From NCBI GenBank assembly GCA_016303195.1, contig JAEDMD010000058.1, forward strand, positions 1 to 10,233: a stretch of DNA of 10,233 nt, in the 5' to 3' direction. The stretch comes from Oscillospiraceae bacterium (GTDB lineage: Bacteria; Bacillota; Clostridia; Oscillospirales; Ruminococcaceae). Each line of letters opens with the position of its first letter. The first letter of the stretch is position 1. The notes under the pieces are model-generated. The model saw nothing but the letters and a program-made list of their open reading frames with translations. It had not been told where the DNA came from and ran no database searches. Positions 1 to 10,233 of this stretch are shown piece by piece. The position numbers were made by a program, and so were the translations under genes.

Positions 1-35
1 TCCTCACTCAAATAAGCATATTTCGCGTAGGGAAA

Positions 36-83
36 GAGGCTGTTGCCTGCAATTTGCAATTAACTTGCATTTGCAACAGCCCC
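36..83 (-). terminator. Long hairpin, possible terminator or insertion-sequence end
   Basis: GAGGCTGTTGC (36-46) and GCAACAGCCCC (73-83) are inverted repeats with nine contiguous pairs; in minus-strand RNA an extra G-U and G-C pair extend the stem to 11. Inside, TGCAA (55-59) and TTGCA (65-69) form a second short stem. On the minus strand the stem is followed by TTTCCC, only a weak T-run. The GGGGCTGTTGCAAAT edge also resembles terminal inverted repeats of some insertion sequences. Confidence 0.4.
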
Positions 84-214
84 TAGTCCGTGAGATGACC
101 TCGCTATGCCGGGGGATCATTATTCATGCCATGAGTTCGGAACGATAACTCTGTCCGCAGCAATAGATTTTATTCCCACCCAAAAAGCCTTGTAAAATAC
201 GGATTTTTATCCGT

Positions 215-244
215 TGAAACGATAGCCTACTATGAAACGATAGC
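215..244 (+). repeat. Two 12 bp direct repeats at 18 bp spacing
   Basis: TGAAACGATAGC occurs at 215-226 and again at 233-244. Looser copies are GGAACGATAACT (139-150) and TGAAATGATAAC (307-318). Directly before the first copy a 6 bp hairpin, ACGGAT/ATCCGT, occupies 199-214. Function unknown; the 18 bp phase could suit a regulator binding side by side. Confidence 0.5.
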
Positions 245-322
245 TTTTGCAATAGCACTGAAATAGGAGCGTCGGGATGTAAAACGTGCCCTCAAACCAA
301 CGCGGCTGAAATGATAACTACA

Positions 323-356
323 CCCTTTGTTTTGAAAAATGCTGATAAACAAAGGG
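323..356. repeat. Perfect 10 bp inverted repeat (hairpin)
   Basis: CCCTTTGTTT at 323-332 pairs perfectly with AAACAAAGGG at 347-356 around a 14-base loop. Neither strand has a clear T-run after it, so it is not a standard terminator by itself; it could protect the 3' end of read-through mRNA or be a protein-binding site. Confidence 0.5.
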
Positions 357-364
357 AGCTGTAA

Positions 365-407
365 TGTAAAATTAAAAATAAGAGAAAGGAGAGTCTCGAT
401 CACTCCC
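365..407 (-). terminator. Probable Rho-independent terminator of the CRISPR operon
   Basis: On the minus strand, GGGAGT (402-407) and ACTCTC (389-394) can form a 6 bp stem with one G-U pair and a 7-base loop. A T-rich tract follows at once (365-387; TTTCTCTTATTTTTAATTTT). It lies about 53 bases after the last gene's stop. The stem is short, so efficiency is uncertain. Confidence 0.45.
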
Positions 408-460
408 TCGGTAAAACAAACAATCATCATACCTATTTGCCCAAGAAAGTATCAAAGTGA

Positions 461-754
461 TCAACTCAATCTGAAAAGTCGGTTCGCCTCGGAATGGCTT
501 TCTGGTTGATGCTCGTTAAGCCAGTTCCACTGAAGCACAAAATCATTATCAGATATTTGACCGAGTTCTTCAGCCAACATTTCTGCACAATCATTTACAT
601 AAATCGAATTGGAATCCGTTGCCATTCTAATTCCGTGCTCAATGTAAGTCTTCGCCAATTCCTCATTCATCTTAACAGGAAGTGCGTCATGCCACAGCAC
701 CCAGACGCATTTGTATAGGCAGACATTCTTTTCCATGAATTCAAAAACCCCCAT
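461..754 (-). CDS. Small hypothetical protein at the end of the CRISPR operon
   Basis: A 97-residue reading frame of unknown function, 18 bp after the CARF-HEPN stop and in the same orientation. The first 25 residues are hydrophobic and aromatic (CLYKCVWVLWHDALPV) and the rest is acidic and helical (EELAKTYIEHGIRMA, CAEMLAEELGQI). The composition looks protein-like rather than random, and the spacing fits operon membership. There is no good ribosome binding site before ATG 754; ATG 736 (91 residues) has a G-run at a loose distance and may be the true start. It could be a small partner or inhibitor of the CARF-HEPN enzyme, but nothing in the sequence proves this. A terminator-like hairpin follows its stop by about 53 bases. 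Confidence 0.55.
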   Translation of the reverse strand: MGVFEFMEKNVCLYKCVWVLWHDALPVKMNEELAKTYIEHGIRMATDSNSIYVNDCAEMLAEELGQISDNDFVLQWNWLNEHQPESHSEANRLFRLS

Positions 755-772
755 AGTGTATTTTAATTGGAC

Positions 773-2587
773 TTACTGCTGCTGTGAATCATATTGATGC
801 CTCCGTATCAAATCCAGAGATGCTGTAAGAATACGCTTGATTTCCCCCGTATCCAGCTTCTTCTCTGGGTAACGGTTATTTTCTTTTAAGTAATCCATAA
901 GTTTCTTACTATAACGTCCCCCTTCAAGATCAGCATGACAGACGCGATTCCTGATTATTCTTGCGTAGAGATAATCCATCAGAAACTGTCTAAGGTCAGT
1001 AAGAGAGTCGGTGGAATACTCCGATGCATTCAAGATGTTTTCAAGACTAACTAGCGTATAATAATAGTTTTCGTTAATATCGTAATCGGTTGCGTGAGAG
1101 GTGGCAAGCCCCATTAGTATCTTTAACTCATCCGAGCTCAATCGCAAGACGCAATTAATTATCTCAATCGGGCGCTTAGCTCGCAATCGGTTCCAAGCCA
1201 CCTTTTTTTCTCCAGATTCAGTTAGGGAAGAAGTCCTGCGGATTCGCTCGTGTCCTGTGGTATCCCTGACTAGTTTGTTAATGGCATTTTTAAGAATGCG
1301 CTCTGTACCGGAGTATTGTAGAGCCTCATTAATCCATCCGTATGAATTCGTATTCACGCAACCTATGCAGCACTCATCAAATGAGCTTGTTCTGCGATAC
1401 TGTCCACAATTATTTTGGCAATTGCAATCAGCATATTCGGCCAAATATGGGCTGCTCATCATCAAGCTTCTTATGATTACCTTAACAATGCAAACCCCCG
1501 TGCGCACATCGTATGGAAGCTCATTACATGCATTACTGTCGAGACGGTTAGTTAGCAGTTCTGCTTTATGGTCTTGCACAAACCTCCTCAACTGTGCTTG
1601 CGGAGAGTTTGGGCTTTCGGTTATTTCAGGATAATCTTTACCCAAGTTGAACAGGTCGTTGATCGCCTTATAGTGATCGTAAGAATTATCCAACCGAGTA
1701 TTTTTTACATCAAGCAGGGAAGTCTTATCTATTATAAACTCGGGGATCCGTTCATTATAAACTGTCAATGCCTGCTGGATAAAGTTATTGTCGAGGCACC
1801 ATTCGATGATATCCGGAACAGTTGTGAGGTGTGAGAACTTTTCGCAGAAAATGTCGAGCAAAAGGTTGGTTTGTGTATCACAAGTATTGCGAAGCTTATC
1901 AAGTTCAGCATTTATTGTGTTGATTTCTTTGTCGAGCATGTCTGTCTGACAGAGTGCAATACTCTCAGATAATTCTCCCATCGCAGTCAGTAATGGGGAT
2001 AGCTCCGAGTCGTCATGAAAATGCTCCTTAAGCGAACTGACGCTGCAAAACCTGCTGAATTCACTCAAACCATTTATTAGAACGGGCGACATAAAGGTGG
2101 ATACATCCGTAATGGCCTTATCGGAAAGTGAGGAATAAACTGCCCCGGCGACCTTAATGCCGCGATACCTCAGAATATTTGCTATAAGATTAAGCTTGAT
2201 AACAGCATCTCTGAATCCGCCTGTTGTTTCAAGGTAGATCTCGTCATTAGGCGATATTGTTTTGATAACCTTGGGCAGAACATCCTTACCAAAGTCCATT
2301 CCGGCGTCAAAGCGAATCGGGGTTGTGCTTACACCCGATTCCTTGAGAAAAGAGCTCACAAAGCTGTATGCATTGGAGGCGTCGTCCGTCACGATACAAA
2401 TAACATCTTTGATACCCCCATCGTGCTGAATAAGGTAGCGTATGGGTGCTTCACTGCTTAAACTTCCTCCGCTCACATACGACCCATCGGGACAAGAGTA
2501 CTCATATGTTTTCCCGTTTTCGTGCATTATGCTGAGAAAGACGAGGATTCGTTTTTGCCCGGTTATTTCATTAAGTTGTCTTCTCAT
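773..2587 (-). CDS. CARF-HEPN ribonuclease, Csm6/Csx1-like
   Basis: Accessory RNase of type III CRISPR, expected to be switched on by cyclic oligoadenylate made by Cas10 and then to cut RNA non-specifically. Length 604 residues. The N-terminal half (about 12-175) is a CARF domain: RILVFLSIM first strand, VICIVTDD (62-69), then EIYLETTGGFRDAV (116-129), the ligand-contacting TGG-R motif seen in Csm6-type CARFs, and VAGAVYSSL (146-154). A long helical region follows. Near the C-terminus RNRVCH (R546, H551) is an R-x4-H HEPN catalytic motif, set in helices as expected. Between them lie six cysteines (388, 390, 394, 406, 407, 410; pattern CxC-x3-C-x11-CC-x2-C), a possible metal site that is not a usual part of Csm6. 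ATG 2587 has GGAG eight bases upstream (2596-2599). The gene starts 15 bp after its neighbour's stop. Exact subfamily is uncertain; CARF and HEPN assignments are firm. Confidence 0.85.
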   Translation of the reverse strand: MRRQLNEITGQKRILVFLSIMHENGKTYEYSCPDGSYVSGGSLSSEAPIRYLIQHDGGIKDVICIVTDDASNAYSFVSSFLKESGVSTTPIRFDAGMDFGKDVLPKVIKTISPNDEIYLETTGGFRDAVIKLNLIANILRYRGIKVAGAVYSSLSDKAITDVSTFMSPVLINGLSEFSRFCSVSSLKEHFHDDSELSPLLTAMGELSESIALCQTDMLDKEINTINAELDKLRNTCDTQTNLLLDIFCEKFSHLTTVPDIIEWCLDNNFIQQALTVYNERIPEFIIDKTSLLDVKNTRLDNSYDHYKAINDLFNLGKDYPEITESPNSPQAQLRRFVQDHKAELLTNRLDSNACNELPYDVRTGVCIVKVIIRSLMMSSPYLAEYADCNCQNNCGQYRRTSSFDECCIGCVNTNSYGWINEALQYSGTERILKNAINKLVRDTTGHERIRRTSSLTESGEKKVAWNRLRAKRPIEIINCVLRLSSDELKILMGLATSHATDYDINENYYYTLVSLENILNASEYSTDSLTDLRQFLMDYLYARIIRNRVCHADLEGGRYSKKLMDYLKENNRYPEKKLDTGEIKRILTASLDLIRRHQYDSQQQ

Positions 2588-2602
2588 AAATATATCTCCA
2601 AG

Positions 2603-3937
2603 TTAGTTTAAGTCATAATTTTGACAGTCGAGTACTTTGCTTTCATTTAAGAGAGACCTAAGCTTCTTATAGTTTCTGTTCCAGATATCGCTAATATTCC
2701 ATTTTTTGCTGTATCGCGCCCAACCATAGCTTTTCGCAACTTCTTGTCTCATAGGCTTATAGCAAGGATTGTCAGAGTCGGCTGTATCGTTGACAAGCTC
2801 TGCAACAGGAATATCCGCCTCACACTGTGAGTATGGCAGACTATCCTTGGAAACTTTATGATAGTAGCCGTAACTCTTCTTTCTGATTTCATCAAGTGAA
2901 GAGTAAACTTCTTTAATGTGGCCTTCTATATTAAAAGTCTTTCCCTGTTCCTGCATGAAGCAAAAGGATATAAAGGGGCTGTCAAGAAAGCTGAGGAGCT
3001 CTTTTTCGTCAGATACAGTGAACTCATTCCCATCGACACCCTTCAGCTCGTTCATAATATTGAATGTTATGTATAAAGCCACTTTTTCATTGCCTTTTTT
3101 TACGTCTTGGAAAACCTTTAAAGCTGCACTCAGCAAATTTGCGAAAGGATTACCGTCATAAAGCGGAACATCATCCAATGGCGGCTGAGCTTCAATGCTT
3201 GACTCACTTGAAGCCTTGTCATCGGTTGAATCCTCATATTCAAAAACGTTATCTTCATAGGGTCCAACAGAGGGCCTAAAATATTCTTCGATTGAGTCGG
3301 ATAGAATATAGGCCTTGCCATTACCCTCGCTTTGTGCTGGCCAGTATGTAGAAGGCGATACATTCTTTTTGCCTGATACGATGCTTCGAATCTCCACCCA
3401 AATACTGCTAATAGACGGCAACGTCTTCGGAATAATGATCGTTCCATAATCAAGCGAGCCTAAGCAATAAGCAGTGTAATCTGGCTCAGTATAAATCGAT
3501 GCACCATTTTTAGATATTACTTTATATTGATGGGACGGCATTTTCGTAAGACCGCCCAAGCTCATTTCTTTAGCTTCTTTTGAAGCTTTCCTCAGGATTG
3601 AAGTAATAAAATACTTGCGAATAGAACCTGTTCCGTACTTCTCTAGAGTATTTCCGCGTATATCATGCAGGACTGAAAAAAAGTGGTATGTCAAAAAAGC
3701 TATATGCGAAGGAACGATCTTCAAACATGATGGCTCAACATTTTTATCCAAAGACCAACGAACTTTATTACTTGCAGCAACTAAAGGGAGGATCTGTTTC
3801 TGAGCATATTCAGTAATATAAACCCAGCGAGGATCGTCTTTTTCCCAAACTGCCTCGGTGTCTTTTTTTAATATAGAGTCATTGCAGTACTCGATAATCA
3901 GATCTTCAAACTGCTCTAATGATATTTTTTCACTCAT
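2603..3937 (-). CDS. Unrecognised CRISPR-linked protein with SH3b-like central segment
   Basis: Function unknown; 444 residues from ATG 3937. Residues 1-130 are mainly helical and soluble. Residues about 138-220 look like a bacterial SH3 (SH3b) domain: YKVISKNGASIYTEPD, then a LGSLDYGTIIIPK step, a tryptophan strand (IWVEIRSI) and a final GKAYILSDSIEEY, matching the usual order of V-x-ASALNVRSGPS-like strand, G-x-L-x-x-G, W-x-x-V and G-x-V. An acidic, serine-rich linker follows (about 226-258), then a second helical region. The C-terminal stretch RQEVAKSYGWARYSKKW...YKKLRSLL (397-430) is basic and faintly resembles a helix-turn-helix such as sigma region 4; the segment SIRKYFITSILRKASKEAKE (105-124) faintly resembles sigma region 2. 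These sigma hints are weak. There is no signal peptide or membrane segment. It overlaps the CARF gene by 8 bp and precedes the CARF-HEPN gene by 15 bp, so a role in the CRISPR response is likely but inferred. Confidence 0.8.
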   Translation of the reverse strand: MSEKISLEQFEDLIIEYCNDSILKKDTEAVWEKDDPRWVYITEYAQKQILPLVAASNKVRWSLDKNVEPSCLKIVPSHIAFLTYHFFSVLHDIRGNTLEKYGTGSIRKYFITSILRKASKEAKEMSLGGLTKMPSHQYKVISKNGASIYTEPDYTAYCLGSLDYGTIIIPKTLPSISSIWVEIRSIVSGKKNVSPSTYWPAQSEGNGKAYILSDSIEEYFRPSVGPYEDNVFEYEDSTDDKASSESSIEAQPPLDDVPLYDGNPFANLLSAALKVFQDVKKGNEKVALYITFNIMNELKGVDGNEFTVSDEKELLSFLDSPFISFCFMQEQGKTFNIEGHIKEVYSSLDEIRKKSYGYYHKVSKDSLPYSQCEADIPVAELVNDTADSDNPCYKPMRQEVAKSYGWARYSKKWNISDIWNRNYKKLRSLLNESKVLDCQNYDLN

Positions 3938-4676
3938 TGTCATCACCCTTTGAAAGCTCTATGATAGCATCAATAACCCCTAAAGGTCTTTCAACCCTGT
4001 TTTCCGCAAGAAGACGAACAAGCTCATCAAGGTGTGCAAGTGCTGTGATATCGAAAATCTTCTGTACAGGTGGATCAGCGCTATGATCCTTTTCTCCATA
4101 CACTATGCATTCAATAGAAACGTTGCGTTTAACTCTATATGCATACATAATTGCCATTAGCTCAGCAATCGGCATCGGCTTAACCCCATATGTGAAACAT
4201 GCATATAGAATGTCTTCGTCCTCAAGGTGATCGAGAAGCTTCCGGAAGATATCGATCATTGTTCCAACGTCACCGGCATAGTCCACCGGAACGTCGGTAA
4301 CCCCGTTGCAGATGAACCCCTTTTCTTTTGCAAGAGCAAAAACTTCATCTTCAAGTTGCCTGAAGTGAATCTCACTTGCCTGCGTATGCGTATTAACGGC
4401 AATGACGCGAATCTCTTCTCCGGCATTTGCGTAAGCGTTGATAACGGGTATGATAGGGAATCTTGTTTTCCCATCAAACTTGTCATACAAGAGCTTGGGA
4501 TTACCGACGGGGGTATAAACATCCTTACTGAGCATATCGTACTGAACCCTGCTTGGCTTATAGTCTACAGGGTAATGTTGACAATTATCATTGCATAGCT
4601 TGCATTTTCCCTTGCAGTCAAAGCCGTCTTTCTCTCCGCATGGCTGAAGGGGTGTTACCATAATAAACTTTTTCAT
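3930..4676 (-). CDS. Stand-alone CARF-like protein with N-terminal cysteine cluster
   Basis: Probable cyclic-oligoadenylate sensor with no recognisable effector domain. The 248 residues follow the CARF pattern of the Csx1/TM1812 (DxTHG) group: a first strand KKFIMVTPL (2-10), IRVIAVNTHT (89-98), DILYACFTYGVKPMPIAEL (155-173), where the usual D-x-T-H-G-x-R-x-x-P motif is degenerate (FTYGVKPMP), then VSIECIVYGE (186-195) and KIFDITAL (206-213). No R-x4-6-H HEPN motif, PD-(D/E)XK or protease motif is visible, and the chain ends soon after the CARF fold. Five cysteines (13, 21, 25, 28, 32) form a metal-site-like insertion after the first strand. ATG 4676 is preceded by GGGAGGAG six bases away (4683-4690). 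The stop overlaps the next start in ATGAGTGA, suggesting equal amounts and partnership with that protein. It might be a ring nuclease, a co-sensor or a regulator; only the CARF assignment is reasonably supported. Confidence 0.65.
   Translation of the reverse strand: MKKFIMVTPLQPCGEKDGFDCKGKCKLCNDNCQHYPVDYKPSRVQYDMLSKDVYTPVGNPKLLYDKFDGKTRFPIIPVINAYANAGEEIRVIAVNTHTQASEIHFRQLEDEVFALAKEKGFICNGVTDVPVDYAGDVGTMIDIFRKLLDHLEDEDILYACFTYGVKPMPIAELMAIMYAYRVKRNVSIECIVYGEKDHSADPPVQKIFDITALAHLDELVRLLAENRVERPLGVIDAIIELSKGDDNE
3946..3951 (-). promoter_or_regulatory. Ribosome binding site favouring ATG 3937
   Basis: AAAGGG on the minus strand lies 8 bases before ATG 3937. The alternatives GTG 3946 and ATG 3943 would overlap this site or sit only two bases from it, so the third candidate start is preferred. 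Confidence 0.5.
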
Positions 4677-4719
4677 AAAAATCTCCTCCCGAAACGATAT
4701 CCATTAACACGCGATAGAT

Positions 4720-6774
4720 TTATTCTTTCCTCAAACCATTCAATCCGACTCCTGACATGGTTTCTTTCACCGTGGGAAGAACTTTGCTAATACAAGGGTT
4801 CGTTCCCGTCCCTTTTATCTGTTTGTTCCCAACAAACCATTGCATAGAGGTAACGCTTGTGGCACTTTGACCACCATTGTCACCAAGAGGATAGGAAAGG
4901 TGGATGTTTTTGCCAATTGTGTTGTAATCAAGAAATGCAAGCATTGCCCTGACCGAAGGTGGATACTTTCCGCCATGCATAAACAAATCCTTGGCATCGC
5001 ATACTTTTGAGTACTTGTTACATGGTTTACTTTTATATTCGCCCGTGTTGCAGTCGTAATTTCGAAGATGAACTCGCTCAATCTCCGTTTTAATACTTCC
5101 AAGTCCAAGCGGTTTACCTAACCCAAGCTTATGGCAAAGATCCTTTTCTCCATCTTTCGGCGCTATGCACCAAGTTAGAACCCGTAGCTGTTCCGGACTG
5201 ATATTTTCAAAATACACAGTGAATGAAAAGTCCGCTTTTGTAATAAGCTCCACCGTCGCATTTCGCACGGTTTTCTCTCTCGTTTCATAGGGAGGAAGAG
5301 GTTGGGCGGACAACGACGGATTGTATGCCGCATTGCGGTTGTGAAAGAAGAACTTTCGTCCTCTTAACTTTGGAGTATACTTAATATGGTCGACAATACG
5401 AGCGTCAGCATCATTTGTCTGCCTGTAGTACTCAAAATTCCATGTCCGAGCATTCGTGTTAGCCCTTGTTTTATACTGTCTGCTCTCACTATCATAGTAC
5501 CGCTCTAAAGGTCTTTCGAGATACATCTCGCCCGCCGATATTTTAGCTCCGGCAAGTTCCTTAAGCATTGTCCGCATTGTTTTCAGCTCGCTTCCTTTAA
5601 CAAGAACTGCATCCGAGAATCTGACAGCCGAGCCAAATACAGTCTCCCCGCTGCTGATCATTCCGAAGAGCGCACAGGCAGGACAGATCGGCGACACTCG
5701 CTTGTCGGCGGCTTTATCTGTCTCATTCTTCTGATTTCTGTCAAGCAAATCACCACATGGAGCGAATACGCCTGCTATTTCACTTAGTGAAGAGTAATAT
5801 ACTTCACGCGAAAGCATTGCTGGCGAAAAATGATAGAGCCGTGTTTTTTTCAAAGGATCGAACGTTTCACTATAGAAAACAGGAGTTCCTGACTCTTTGA
5901 TGGCATAGCTTTTATATCCGCCATGTATTTCGGAATTACATCCGTTCAACTTGCTATCGCCGTAGCACTTCAACACAGCCTCAAAGTTTTTAACGCAGGC
6001 TTCATCAACCGTGCGACGGCTATCGGCTTTCATATGACTCAGCGAAATGATATGGCTGTGATGTCTGGTTTTACCGATGCCTCTCTCTCCAAGCAGAAGA
6101 AGTCCATAATGTTTTGCGTTGTCACCGCAGAGATTTTCGGCGTAATAGCCGCAAAGCACGTTGCGCTTATAATACGGCTTTCCAATGTCAAAACTAATAT
6201 AAGCGCCGGTTGTTATTTGACTGCCGTTATCAGCCCGGATACTACCGTCGCTTGGACTTGTAGGATATCTTGCCGGTCTGCCATCGCCGAAACCAAATGT
6301 ATCCACGAGGAACATATCAGTATCGTATAACATCCAACCATCAGCCTCTTTGATCAATATGCCCGGTTTTTTAGGTTCGCTGCTCCTGCCGGTAAGTGGC
6401 GAATTATCAAAAACGCTCATGCAGGAATTTGTAACAGTCTCATAGACATTACGGATCATTCCACGAAGCTCGCTGCCTGGAATCATCGGTGTTTTGCCGT
6501 CAATACTGACATACGGATAGGAGAAATGCTTCCCAATAATCTTGCCGTCATTATCCTTAACATCTGAAAATTCGATTTTGGCAGGAGATGTCGGCGCATG
6601 ATCCGGCAACGCCAAAGGAGTAACTACGCTTAACCTACAGTTGATCGATCCGGTAAGCCTCTTTTCCTTATCTCCAAACCAATCCTCGCGCGTTTTTCTA
6701 ACCATATATCTATCGCTCATCATTGCGAAATTATATGGGTTTACAAACTGCTGATCAGTTTCCCTCCAAGTCAT
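4720..6774 (-). CDS. TIGR03986-type RAMP protein (large Cas7 with insertion)
   Basis: Large Cas7-like subunit of the III-D effector, 684 residues. The start FVNPYNFA (10-17) and the sequence GSINCRLSVVTPLALP (42-57), PMIPGSELRGMIRNVYETV (96-114) and TNSCMSVFD (115-123) are characteristic of this RAMP family. The later core has CPACALFG (364-371), with a CxxC zinc-finger-like motif as in III-D and III-E Cas7 domains, VFGSAVRFSDAVL (379-391), and the closing glycine loop HKLGLGKPLGLGSIK (548-562). Between about 125 and 355 sits a long stretch outside the basic Cas7 fold, containing CGYYAENLCG and LLLLGERGIGKTRHH; this fits the 'Cas7-insertion' subunit of III-Dv, which sits towards the crRNA 3' end. 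ATG 6774 has AAGGAG six bases upstream (6781-6786) and lies 3 bp after the Csx19 stop. It is the last core effector gene; a 43 bp gap then separates it from the accessory genes. Confidence 0.85.
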   Translation of the reverse strand: MTWRETDQQFVNPYNFAMMSDRYMVRKTREDWFGDKEKRLTGSINCRLSVVTPLALPDHAPTSPAKIEFSDVKDNDGKIIGKHFSYPYVSIDGKTPMIPGSELRGMIRNVYETVTNSCMSVFDNSPLTGRSSEPKKPGILIKEADGWMLYDTDMFLVDTFGFGDGRPARYPTSPSDGSIRADNGSQITTGAYISFDIGKPYYKRNVLCGYYAENLCGDNAKHYGLLLLGERGIGKTRHHSHIISLSHMKADSRRTVDEACVKNFEAVLKCYGDSKLNGCNSEIHGGYKSYAIKESGTPVFYSETFDPLKKTRLYHFSPAMLSREVYYSSLSEIAGVFAPCGDLLDRNQKNETDKAADKRVSPICPACALFGMISSGETVFGSAVRFSDAVLVKGSELKTMRTMLKELAGAKISAGEMYLERPLERYYDSESRQYKTRANTNARTWNFEYYRQTNDADARIVDHIKYTPKLRGRKFFFHNRNAAYNPSLSAQPLPPYETREKTVRNATVELITKADFSFTVYFENISPEQLRVLTWCIAPKDGEKDLCHKLGLGKPLGLGSIKTEIERVHLRNYDCNTGEYKSKPCNKYSKVCDAKDLFMHGGKYPPSVRAMLAFLDYNTIGKNIHLSYPLGDNGGQSATSVTSMQWFVGNKQIKGTGTNPCISKVLPTVKETMSGVGLNGLRKE

Positions 6775-6777
6775 GCT

Positions 6778-7281
6778 TTACTCCTTCCCGGGAAGCATAA
6801 ACCCTGCGTCCCTATAGCCCACTATACGCCAATCAAAGGCGTACTCAATGCCATGCTCACCCTTTGTAAGATACGTGCGAACAAGCACTTTCCGCTTGTT
6901 ATTCTTGTCAGAGAGAAAGAACTTACCGCCGCCCGTTGTCACCAACGCGTTTTCCTCTTTGCACTGCGCAGTACGGTTAGTGTCAATATCAAGATACTGA
7001 AGCTCGTCAAAGCGGATCTCGTATTTAGGGTCATCATCGGATGCGATTCGCTTATACAGTTTTGCTTCGCCCAGGTTATCGCGGAAAGCCCGGTATTCAG
7101 CTTTTTCATTGAAAATACGCAGCTCCAAAAGCTTTGAAAGATCGATTTCGTATCCGGGCTCCGCAGAAATAAACGCTCCGTTCTTATACAAACCGCAGTC
7201 GATCTTATCCGAAAGCACGGCAATATAATCGCTGCCGTCAAACGATGCTCCGTTGTTGGTCAATAAATCAAACACAAGCAT
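6778..7281 (-). CDS. csx19: Csx19 (TIGR03984 family) type III-D accessory subunit
   Basis: The 167-residue protein resembles Csx19, a small protein found with III-D loci and a structural subunit of III-Dv complexes; it has no known enzymatic activity. Supporting signs are the LRIFNEKAEYRAFRD segment (54-68), FDELQYL (91-97), a charged loop before VLVRTYL (132-138), and the ending GIEYAFDWRIVGYRDAGF (144-161), whose dWR-G pattern is typical of the family. Its position between the double Cas7 and the TIGR03986 RAMP supports the call. It begins at ATG 7281 with AAGGAGG six bases upstream (7288-7294), overlaps the upstream gene by 14 bp and ends 3 bp before the next ATG, so translation is likely coupled. 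Identification is from remembered family features, not a profile search. Confidence 0.75.
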   Translation of the reverse strand: MLVFDLLTNNGASFDGSDYIAVLSDKIDCGLYKNGAFISAEPGYEIDLSKLLELRIFNEKAEYRAFRDNLGEAKLYKRIASDDDPKYEIRFDELQYLDIDTNRTAQCKEENALVTTGGGKFFLSDKNNKRKVLVRTYLTKGEHGIEYAFDWRIVGYRDAGFMLPGKE

Positions 7282-8659
7282 TCAGAACCTCCTTCATATT
7301 ATCAAAACACACCGGTGATACGGATCGGCCGTTAATTTTCATTCCTTCGATTGTGAACATTCCGCGGCCTATGGCTGTTTCGCCGCCTACGGCAAGATAA
7401 CCGTTGTGAAGATCTGCAACTACCGCCATCAAGGCGTAAAGCGCCTTTCTTTCAACACCTTTATCGATCCGGATGACAAGGTCGCCTTTGCCATAGAATA
7501 CGCTTTGCTCGGTAAGGAGGGCCCTGTCCTTGACGGCCCCGCTGAAACGGTCTACGGCGATCCTCGTCAGCGTTTTCGGCGTACCGTTATGGATCACTGT
7601 CTCAGAGAAACATATCTTAGACTTGATCGCTTTATCCACTTTATCCTTTCCCACGGCGTTGTCGACAAAGCCAAACACGGTGTTTACTATGCATTCATCG
7701 TTGACAAGCTCCGAGAACCTGTGCCGGAACGCACCTGCCCAACTTGTGCCGGGTATGACAGGAAGCGAGGATTCGGAAGGGGTATCGTAATCCGATATGT
7801 ACTCACCGCTGAAAGCCTCGTCCTCTACAGGCTTGGCTCTGACAAGAAGCGGACTGTTTTTGACCTGTGGCTTGTCTTTGTCTCCGACTTCCCCCGTGTA
7901 CCAACGGATGGAAAGACCGCCGACCTGTTTAAGTTTTAAATCAATCACGAGCTTGTCAGAAGAGACCGCAGAAGAAAGCTCGAAAAGATCGGAGTCGGTA
8001 AAGGAGTTCTTTTCAAACGGGTCGAAATCGAGCCATGTATCAAGCTCCTTTTCAAGATTGAAGCTCTTTTTATAAACCGTGAGCTTAACAGAGCCAAGTC
8101 CTCTTGTTGTTTTCGCTCCGAAGCATAAGCCTTCGGCATTTGCCTTTGAGAGCAGCTCCTCAAATCGTGCCGCGAGATCGGCGTTATTCTTGTCTATTTC
8201 TGCTATCGCGGTAAACATAGCGCCCGGCTGTACGACCTCGAAGTTGAATTTCGCCCCGGCTTTTCCTCCTTCAATGCGGTTGTCCTTTGCGACCTTATAT
8301 TCATCAAGGGAGATGCTGTCCCTTTCGGTGATGTATGTCTTATCTCGTGTGACGGCGTCGGAAAAAATCACGGGACTTTCTGCAAAAACAGGCTTTTTCT
8401 TATCCGATCCACCGGCATCATCCTTTTCTGCGAGATCGTGATCGTTGCCGGACTGCTTTATGTATCCGAACAGTTCGTTCTCTTCGTTTCCGGCTATATG
8501 CCGCAGAACTCCGGCTATGCTTGTGGCGGGGATATACGGTTTATCATCGCTACCGAGAAGCACATCATTATCAGTATTCTTATTTTTCCCGCAACCGATT
8601 ATCAAAGGGGATAATAGCTCAAAGTCAAGTCTGTAATAGCTGTGGATACGATCACTCAT
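7268..8659 (-). CDS. Tandem double Cas7 RAMP protein (Cas7-2x type, Csm3-like)
   Basis: Backbone subunit of the type III effector, binding crRNA and probably cutting target RNA. The 463-residue protein has two Cas7/RAMP domains in a row. Domain 1 has PYIPATSIAGVLRH (41-54), ELFG (62-65), a SDAV strand (100-103) and the glycine loop GAKTTRGLGSV (181-191). Domain 2 has LPVIPGTSWAGAFRHR (299-314), VFGFVDNA (328-335), RIAVDRFSGAVKDRAL (366-381), which matches the Csm3 RVxIDRxTG pattern, and VGGETAIGRGMF (424-435). Asp30 and Asp32 in TDND lie where Csm3-type proteins carry the catalytic Asp, about ten residues before the IPxTS motif; Asp is also near the matching place in domain 2 (D260/D262). Which one cuts cannot be read from sequence alone. 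The start is ATG 8659, set by the ribosome binding site; the gene overlaps the upstream stop by 8 bp and Csx19 by 14 bp. This fits the Cas7-2x subunit of III-Dv complexes. Confidence 0.87.
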   Translation of the reverse strand: MSDRIHSYYRLDFELLSPLIIGCGKNKNTDNDVLLGSDDKPYIPATSIAGVLRHIAGNEENELFGYIKQSGNDHDLAEKDDAGGSDKKKPVFAESPVIFSDAVTRDKTYITERDSISLDEYKVAKDNRIEGGKAGAKFNFEVVQPGAMFTAIAEIDKNNADLAARFEELLSKANAEGLCFGAKTTRGLGSVKLTVYKKSFNLEKELDTWLDFDPFEKNSFTDSDLFELSSAVSSDKLVIDLKLKQVGGLSIRWYTGEVGDKDKPQVKNSPLLVRAKPVEDEAFSGEYISDYDTPSESSLPVIPGTSWAGAFRHRFSELVNDECIVNTVFGFVDNAVGKDKVDKAIKSKICFSETVIHNGTPKTLTRIAVDRFSGAVKDRALLTEQSVFYGKGDLVIRIDKGVERKALYALMAVVADLHNGYLAVGGETAIGRGMFTIEGMKINGRSVSPVCFDNMKEVLNACV

Positions 8660-10233
8660 TGGATCCGCCTCCCTTCTTTTCAAGCCTCAGTTTGTATTTC
8701 GCAAGTCTAAGCACCGTAAGCATACAATCAAGCTTTATTTTTTCGGGAGCGGATTCGGGGAAAGCCTTTCTAAGGATATCACTGATAGAATCACTCTTTG
8801 CCTTGTCCTTGATCTTTGCAATGCGGTCAAAAACACTTTCTGCACTTTCTGCGGTTTCAACCATCCTTGACACAGTACCGATAAACGCCGCGTTCAATCC
8901 CGCTTTAGAGAAAGTGCTCTCTTTTTCGCGGTAGACGTCCTCTGCATGCTTCATGGCTTCAGCTGCGGCCACCCTGCCATCGAGGAATGCGCCGAACAAT
9001 TCAATAACGTTCCTTTCGATTTGGTGCCCCGATTCATCCACCGGCTCGGAGCGTGAAGCAATGACCTCATCCGAGGGTATAGTGTTATTGATTATATCTT
9101 CTTCTGAATAAACCCTTACCCTGCCGAAGCCTTCTGCATTGCGGTAGCCAATATAAGGCTCGCAGGACGGGGCACAGGGGAGCTCGGCCTTAACGGTGCT
9201 ACCCATAGCAAACGCAGCAACGGGGAGATTCCTCATGTTTCGCTTGGCGTTATAACCGTGTATTAGCTTGAAGCCAAGATCGTATTCCACTTCTGTCTCG
9301 TGCGGTATCCCAAGAGCATTTTTCAGTTCCTTGGGATCTGTTGTGTTTATTCCGTTATTGTTGAACAGAACGGCGTCGCTTTCGAGACAGAATACGAACC
9401 GCTTTCCTGCAGGTGCTGTTGAGACGGTATCTTGCCTTTTGCAGTCAAGCAGCTTGCAGCCGGAATACTGCGCCGATCTCGACCTGCCGAGACGGAGATC
9501 GCCATTTACAAGAATCCCTTTGAGCCTCTCAAGCAACGCCTTATCGGAGCTTTCGATTTCTCCGTAAAGGTACTGCCCTGCGGAAATGGAGTCCTGAGTA
9601 TAGAGCATCGCATCCTCTCCGCGGGAATGGTGATACTGCGTTTCGGTTAATACATCGATGATGTTTGAAAGATTCATCGAGCTGACAGACTTGTTTTTCA
9701 GTGCTTTCGGAATATCCTCATTGGGATCAAATTTCTCGCTATCAGAGACGGGCATTCCCTCTTTTGCCTGATGCTCGGTAATTATAACTCCGTCTTTTTC
9801 CCTTTTTGTTGATTTCAGCTTTCTCATGAAATGCGGAGCGGGGATTGTCCTTGTTCCTTTTTTATCGGAGATGTAAAGATTTCCGTACCTGACCTTGCCC
9901 AAAAGAAAGAGATCGGAGAACTCATCGTCATCCATTCCCGCAATCACTGCGAGCCTCGCGAAAGCTCCGAGAACTGCAGTCCCCGGCACGTATTCCACGC
10001 ATGCGTTGTTATCGCATGACGCTATCAAAAGAGGTTCGGTCAGCAGTATATGCAACGGCAGCAGGAAGTTTATATCCCTTTTAAAAATCACGGTGTTTGA
10101 AGCTGAACTGTTCTCATCCACCTGTTCATATTCAGCTTTGACAAAGCCAAGTCCCCTTGTACGCATGAGACCTATGTGGCGGAGAGCCTTGCAGATCCTT
10201 TCAAACTCCGTCGCGTCCTCCTTAGAGACGCCG
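8652..10233 (-). CDS. csx10: Cas7-Csx10(Cas5)-Cas11-like RAMP fusion, 5' end cut by window edge
   Basis: Type III-D backbone subunit; its Csx10 (Cas5) part would hold the crRNA 5' tag near Cas10. The frame stays open to the window edge, so ATG 10166 is not the start: 22 more in-frame codons precede it and run into RTRGLGFV (residues 24-31, counting from the first whole codon at 10232), the glycine-rich loop that usually closes a RAMP domain. An upstream Cas7-like domain is therefore mostly outside the window. After a short linker comes a complete Csx10-type module: hydrophobic strand near 54, YVPGTAVLGAFARL (81-94), FLLGKVRYGNLY (109-120), LRLGRSRSAQYSG (246-258) and the C-terminal loop YRNAEGFGRVRV (363-374). 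Residues about 395-520 are predicted almost all helical by eye and fit a fused Cas11 small subunit, as in III-D2/III-Dv complexes. The stop overlaps the next gene's start in ATGAGTGA. Csx10 identity is fairly sure, the Cas11 label less so. Confidence 0.85.
   Translation of the reverse strand, partial: GVSKEDATEFERICKALRHIGLMRTRGLGFVKAEYEQVDENSSASNTVIFKRDINFLLPLHILLTEPLLIASCDNNACVEYVPGTAVLGAFARLAVIAGMDDDEFSDLFLLGKVRYGNLYISDKKGTRTIPAPHFMRKLKSTKREKDGVIITEHQAKEGMPVSDSEKFDPNEDIPKALKNKSVSSMNLSNIIDVLTETQYHHSRGEDAMLYTQDSISAGQYLYGEIESSDKALLERLKGILVNGDLRLGRSRSAQYSGCKLLDCKRQDTVSTAPAGKRFVFCLESDAVLFNNNGINTTDPKELKNALGIPHETEVEYDLGFKLIHGYNAKRNMRNLPVAAFAMGSTVKAELPCAPSCEPYIGYRNAEGFGRVRVYSEEDIINNTIPSDEVIASRSEPVDESGHQIERNVIELFGAFLDGRVAAAEAMKHAEDVYREKESTFSKAGLNAAFIGTVSRMVETAESAESVFDRIAKIKDKAKSDSISDILRKAFPESAPEKIKLDCMLTVLRLAKYKLRLEKKGGGSNE
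8668..8675 (-). promoter_or_regulatory. Ribosome binding site that fixes the start of the double Cas7 gene
   Basis: The minus strand reads AAGGGAGG, 8 bases before ATG 8659. The in-frame TTG at 8683, eight codons earlier, would place this site inside the coding region and has no comparable site of its own, so ATG 8659 is the better start. The site lies in the last codons of the upstream Csx10 fusion. Confidence 0.7.

Follow-up and report, generated by a model that had tools for sequence, protein, structure and literature searches.

The known outputs of type III CRISPR systems are mostly toxic enzymes. In CARF-HEPN effectors (Csx1/Csm6), for example, a single chain holds both the sensor and a ribonuclease output. 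Sigma factors have also been linked to CRISPR systems, including one that is associated with a caspase. Outside of CRISPR, WhiG provides a precedent for control by a cyclic nucleotide: c-di-GMP acts directly through the anti-sigma factor RsiG, which is not a CARF protein. Both CRISPR-linked sigma factors that we found in print act via proteolysis, according to the available portions of the two papers. In CalpL-CalpT-CalpS, a type III cyclic-nucleotide sensor is coupled to the sigma factor CalpS, which gives a transcriptional response, and the substrate of the system's SAVED-Lon protease is a separate anti-sigma factor (PMC12751052). Type III-E loci have a dedicated sigma factor, CASP-sigma (NCBIfam model NF041236), which is controlled by proteolysis of Csx30 by Cas7-11/Csx29, with no CARF protein involved (PMC10028731). 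Here we describe a gene from an Oscillospiraceae bacterium (contig JAEDMD010000058.1 of assembly GCA_016303195.1, positions 1 to 10,233; we refer to this entire stretch of 10,233 nucleotides as the window). Like both of those systems, the window's type III locus might include a sigma factor, and like CalpL-CalpT-CalpS, it has a putative cyclic-nucleotide sensor, but this sensor is a CARF-only protein. We propose that the gene at 2603..3937 and the adjacent CARF gene form a two-gene type III-D module, with the CARF-only protein as the sensor and a sigma-70-like protein as the output. We put the probability of this reading at roughly 50%. The pair and its junction are:

2603..3937, minus strand: gene for the window protein, the CARF-linked partner and an apparently divergent member of a sigma-like family (open reading frame; C-terminal homology)
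3930..4676, minus strand: gene for a CARF-only protein of 248 amino acids (PADLOC CARF2--CARF; NCBIfam)
3930..3937, minus strand: junction, where the CARF stop overlaps the partner's start by 8 bp (from the sequence)

The open frame runs from an ATG at 3937 to a stop at 2603 and encodes 444 amino acids. (An alternative in-frame GTG at 3946, upstream of the ATG, would give a product of 447 amino acids.) An earlier interpretation of this DNA, which we will call the sequence-only reading, described a 444-residue product with no recognized domain except an SH3b-like segment, joined by an 8-bp start-stop overlap to the gene for a CARF protein that lacks its own effector. All of this, the segment aside, is correct. 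The overlap with the end of the CARF gene (3930) is ATGAGTGA on the minus strand; Pfam, NCBIfam, and PADLOC gave nothing for the window protein at E ≤ 1; and the library scans detected no second domain in the 248-amino-acid CARF protein. The sequence-only reading also named a clear match to an unrelated housekeeping family as a result that would count against it, and since those three libraries had none, we rejected that explanation. Searching PDB gave only chance-level matches (best E = 0.74).

Among about 5.8 billion proteins, the window protein's relatives form just four clusters (P0001 to P0004, with 11, 30, 2, and 8 member sequences), and a profile search retrieved the same four. Because all four clusters keep the window's frame open (identities in the alignment of 97, 99, 57, and 41%), the frame is a real gene. 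A search of genome contigs for direct relatives gave four pattern matches, none of which were true relatives. We rejected the idea that the gene is plasmid or phage cargo: tblastn of the window protein against plasmids and phages found no match, nor did tblastn of another partner (from locus L004, see below) against plasmids, and neither the window family's profile (A2) nor the CARF profile (A3) found a relative in viral contigs. AlphaFold with the four-sequence input gave an unusable model of the window protein (pLDDT of 35). One of the homologues, P0001 (557 amino acids), has a tandem duplicate of an N-terminal region of about 115 residues, which could be natural or an assembly artefact.

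The CARF protein led to more distant examples of the pair. Searching genome contigs with a 25-sequence CARF alignment gave 29 pattern matches and 19 confirmed loci, mostly from Clostridia and Coriobacteria (by record title). In all 19 loci, a partner gene of 273-419 amino acids lies directly downstream of the CARF gene and in the same direction, and it starts between -38 and +18 bp relative to the CARF stop (taking the most upstream start). The window's gene is likewise directly downstream of its CARF-only gene and on the same strand. This is a genuine, conserved pairing. The sequence-only reading had proposed such a survey, with a lack of conserved linkage to CARF genes as the result that would count against it; since 19 of 19 loci carry the partner directly after CARF, the linkage is conserved. 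Its description of the gene as CRISPR-linked also holds, given the type III-D locus and the conserved pair with a CARF-only sensor. In two samples of 391 and 200 genomes, which share at least the seed genome, a full-length match was found in the seed genome only.

We also clustered the genes in 20 gene sets (the 19 loci, several of which are on short contigs, and the window) using plain BLAST and single linkage. Fifteen partners fell into one cluster; the partners from L003 and L012 were not covered because antisense frames were picked at both loci. The other large clusters were CARF genes (13 as picked, with CARF present in all 20 sets by selection), CARF-HEPN genes (from 13 sets, one of them the window), and cas genes. 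One cluster from five sets was made up of frames antisense to the CARF gene. Further clusters spanned 3-4 sets, and no unidentified gene was common to five or more of the 20 sets. The divergence of CARF and of the partner is correlated (Mantel r = 0.79, reached in 0 of 5,000 permutations), which co-inheritance would also produce.

To characterize the partners, we aligned 17 of the 19 (alignment A4); the two most divergent, from L018 and L019, were kept out for a blind test. One of the 17 partners (from L003) is above Pfam's cut-off for sigma region 2, and two more match at E ≤ 1. All 29 of the profile matches in other genomes that we examined are proteins that themselves match Sigma70_r2, and 20 of the 21 weak profile matches to PDB were sigma factors. 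In a confident predicted structure of a partner, the N-terminal domain aligns to SigI6, and a complex of WhiG (7lq4) is also among the structural matches; no match of Foldseek against PDB and viral models reached E ≤ 0.001, so this is weak support. Judging from these profiles, the family carries a divergent sigma-70 region 2, and for some partners, the sigma class closest in this region is SigI, which is found in Clostridia and Bacilli. The partners' tail also has slight similarity to SigI-type sigma factors (a score of 17.1, as compared to at most 12.4 for 100 shuffles). On the other hand, the partners that we scanned do not reach any SigI cut-off, the family's C-terminal domain has no match in the sigma alignment, and Pfam's Sigma70_r4 gave no match at E ≤ 1 for any of the 17 partners. 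We rejected an enzymatic function for the partner because, across the 17 rows, M1 is the sole invariant residue and T179 and V251 are nearly invariant. Overall, the family resembles transcription factors of the sigma-70 type, not a new toxin or enzyme. The partners would have an N-terminal region-2-like domain, a family-specific helical C-terminal domain, and possibly a SigI-like helix-turn-helix at the end. Separately, near the end of one locus (L017:19527-20588), a second frame matches the sigma profile (E = 8.6e-8) and could encode either an ordinary sigma factor or another regulator.

In the alignment of the window protein's own family, an N-terminal region is followed by an SH3b-like segment and then by a well-conserved C-terminal part. 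The corresponding features are:

3548..3937, minus strand: N-terminal region, residues 1-130, which sits where relatives have sigma region 2
3263..3547, minus strand: SH3b-like insert, about residues 131-225, apparently lineage-specific (Pfam SH3_3, E = 0.1)
2807..3163, minus strand: C-terminal domain, about residues 259-377, common to the CARF-linked family (hhalign; A4 profile)

The C-terminal domain connects the window protein to the partners. When the window family was compared to A4 with hhalign, the score over this domain was 37.4 (P = 2e-4), while the best of 200 column shuffles scored 24.2; the window family scored just 15.0 against the CARF alignment and 17.2 against the sigma alignment. 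For the blind test, we compared the A4 profile to the homologues P0001 to P0004 and to 165 open reading frames (ORFs) that came from three loci (the window, L018, and L019). The top three ORFs were the genes after CARF in these three loci (E = 2e-4, 7e-4, and 3.4e-3), with the window's gene third best of the 165. The homologues of the window protein came next (0.0036-0.025), and the following ORF was at E = 1.4. (In a whole-genome search, 13 of 15 genomes were matched, and the partners from L018 and L019 fell short of E = 1e-3.) These comparisons support the view that the window protein is a strongly diverged member of the CARF-linked partner family, by way of its C-terminal domain.

The sequence-only reading had made the SH3b-like segment a key feature. 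The label is plausible: a low-confidence model has five strands in this segment, but Pfam's SH3_3 matched one of three homologous segments at E = 0.1, so we consider the label reasonable and unproven. The key role is not supported. The segment is present in three of the four homologue clusters and is missing from P0004 (41% identical) and from the 17 aligned partners (this alignment does not include L018 and L019), which implies that it is a lineage-specific insert. Because of this distribution and the weak match, we rejected SH3b as the effector.

How might the pair work? Cas10 would detect foreign RNA and make a cyclic nucleotide, a CARF dimer would bind it, and this would alter the dimer's hold on the partner. 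Most likely, CARF would act as a ligand-controlled anti-sigma factor that lets go of the partner, and the freed partner would then direct RNA polymerase to defence promoters. We infer the binding of CARF to the partner, its gating by the ligand, the binding to RNA polymerase, and a working region 2 in the window protein; the C-terminal domain is the best candidate for the surface that faces CARF. We favour a two-component switch because the CARF protein has no detected effector domain, the partner has no obvious invariant catalytic set, the pairing is strict, the two proteins' divergence is correlated, and no unidentified gene occurs in five or more of the 20 sets. In a more specific version of this scheme, to which we give somewhat less than even odds, the switch would be free of proteases, the CARF-only protein would be a cyclic-oligoadenylate-controlled anti-sigma factor or sigma activator, the overlapping partner would be a new class of sigma factor, and the window's lineage would have added an SH3b-like module.

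One result leaves a sigma-like output in the window itself less certain: its N-terminal region alone had no similarity to sigma factors above shuffled controls, whether we used the family profile (4 sequences) or P0004. The C-terminal scores and the blind test support membership in the family, and region 2 in the window protein would follow from its relatives and from its position. The missing signal, along with an SH3b-like insert that is known only from the window's lineage, might instead indicate that this lineage swapped its N-terminal domain, and that the protein is an SH3b-containing, non-sigma effector that keeps just the CARF-facing C-terminal domain. We think this is improbable, as the 41%-identical homologue lacks the insert, and the low-confidence model of the window protein has four N-terminal helices, as does the model of a sigma-like relative.

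The other alternatives concern the entire family. With a recognizable region 2 in the family and region 4 matched in none of the 17 partners, the region-2-like domain could occupy RNA polymerase without a working region 4, so that release by CARF would shut down transcription and lead to dormancy in place of a specific programme. Most type III outputs arrest growth, which would fit. The locus already has a likely growth-arrest arm, though (the CARF-HEPN protein), and the tail's resemblance to SigI-type tails is slightly above shuffles, so we view a blocker as unlikely, if the least unlikely of the three alternatives. The CARF protein could also be primarily a ring nuclease, or off switch, with the partner as its regulator or scaffold, or as a regulator of cas expression with a relic sigma-like domain. 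T162, G164, and K166 are invariant in all 25 aligned CARF sequences, and ring nucleases are known among small CARF and CARF-like proteins (Crn1 and Csx20 are examples), according to the available part of a survey (PMC12409355). But one would not expect a dedicated ring nuclease to be paired so strictly with a sigma-like gene, and we doubt this explanation about as much as we doubt the domain swap.

The remaining genes in the window are:

8652..10232, minus strand: Cas5/Csx10 of type III-D, truncated at the window's edge (PADLOC Cas5_IIId, E = 1.7e-48)
7268..8683, minus strand: Cas7 of type III-D (library scans; strong match to PADLOC Cas7_IIId)
6778..7281, minus strand: Csx19, a marker of type III-D (NCBIfam TIGR03984, above cut-off)
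4720..6774, minus strand: Cas7 of the TIGR03986 family, type III-D (cut-off passed; PADLOC)
773..2587, minus strand: CARF-HEPN protein resembling Csx1/Csm6; R-X4-H motif at residue 546 (PADLOC; motif search)
461..754: small ORF of 97 amino acids, the last of the series (no family match in the library scans apart from NCBIfam at E = 0.022, far under the cut-off and at chance level)

The gene order on the minus strand is Cas5/Csx10, Cas7, Csx19, Cas7 (TIGR03986), CARF-only, window protein, CARF-HEPN, and the 97-amino-acid ORF; Cas10 lies outside of the window. The locus is of type III-D: Csx19 and TIGR03986 score above their curated cut-offs, and the matches to Cas5_IIId and Cas7_IIId are strong. 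Neither a SAVED-Lon protease nor a separate anti-sigma factor was recognized among the eight window proteins that we scanned. The model for CASP-sigma did not match six partner proteins or P0004 at E ≤ 10. As for Cas7-11 (gRAMP) with Csx29 and Csx30, the window has separate type III-D genes for Cas5, Cas7, Csx19, and Cas7 instead, and the protein at 4720-6774 scored 152 bits against the gRAMP model (NF041225), whose cut-off is 700. The available parts of three surveys (PMC11229360, PMC12409355, and PMC4012209) do not mention a pair of a CARF-only protein and a sigma factor, and neither did the matches listed by a literature search at the level of titles and the beginnings of abstracts, with subscription papers mostly outside its reach.

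By comparison with these systems, the most fitting description of the pair is a CARF-gated, sigma-like output, or a variant of CRISPR-controlled transcription without the proteases of CalpL/T/S and CASP-sigma. The sequence-only reading had suggested a new output, with the 444-residue protein as an effector or partner under CARF's control: the conserved pair bears out the partnership, and the output looks sigma-like. Given how closely the partner's relatives in other gut bacteria recall sigma factors, which direct RNA polymerase to the genes that it reads, the CRISPR system may respond to a virus by turning genes on, besides cutting. If so, the CARF and sigma-like pair would be a simpler route from an immune signal to gene expression across Clostridia and Coriobacteria, and the genes that are turned on by a type III system would become directly testable. 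The pair could also be a compact transcription switch that responds to cyclic nucleotides, and the stand-alone CARF family (175 homologues at E ≤ 1e-3) gains a hypothesis for its function. The CARF-HEPN protein is a separate effector of the same locus and likely its growth-arrest arm. Because CARF-HEPN recurs in 13 of 20 gene sets, the sigma-like arm probably acts beside a ribonuclease arm in the same system. Besides its R-X4-H motif, the window's CARF-HEPN protein (773-2587) has a mid-protein cysteine cluster, which suggests a zinc-binding insert.

The CARF-only protein itself matches PADLOC's CARF2--CARF (PDLC01821, E = 9.3e-61) and, at 30.6 bits, NCBIfam's TIGR02221 (under the cut-off of 76.25); the family's profile found nothing informative in PDB. 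Its N-terminal part has a cysteine-rich stretch (window positions of about 4575-4640) that could bind a metal. This stretch is shared with P0006 and P0007, while most of the 25 aligned sequences lack it. Another protein, P0016 (219 amino acids, on a contig of 902 bases), has a stretch that is 98% identical to the window's CARF protein over 57% of it; P0016 is also labelled as PF04055 and PF13353 (radical SAM families), and the contig could be chimeric.

Some of the 19 loci have other features of CRISPR systems. Three of them (L010, L012, and L015) have a protein of 246-249 amino acids after the partner, overlapping the partner's end by 7 bases, that appears by eye to be Cas6-like. CRISPR arrays were looked for in 5 of the 19 loci and found in one (L015, with CRISPR-like repeat arrays at 66-1021 and 12345-13637). 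PADLOC confirmed Cas10 for L001, L009, L014, L016, and L018 only. Cas10-like palm motifs fall into several classes, with GGDE in L009, L011, L014, and L016, AGDD in L001, L003, L012, and L015, and GGDD in L018, which may correspond to different cyclic nucleotide products.
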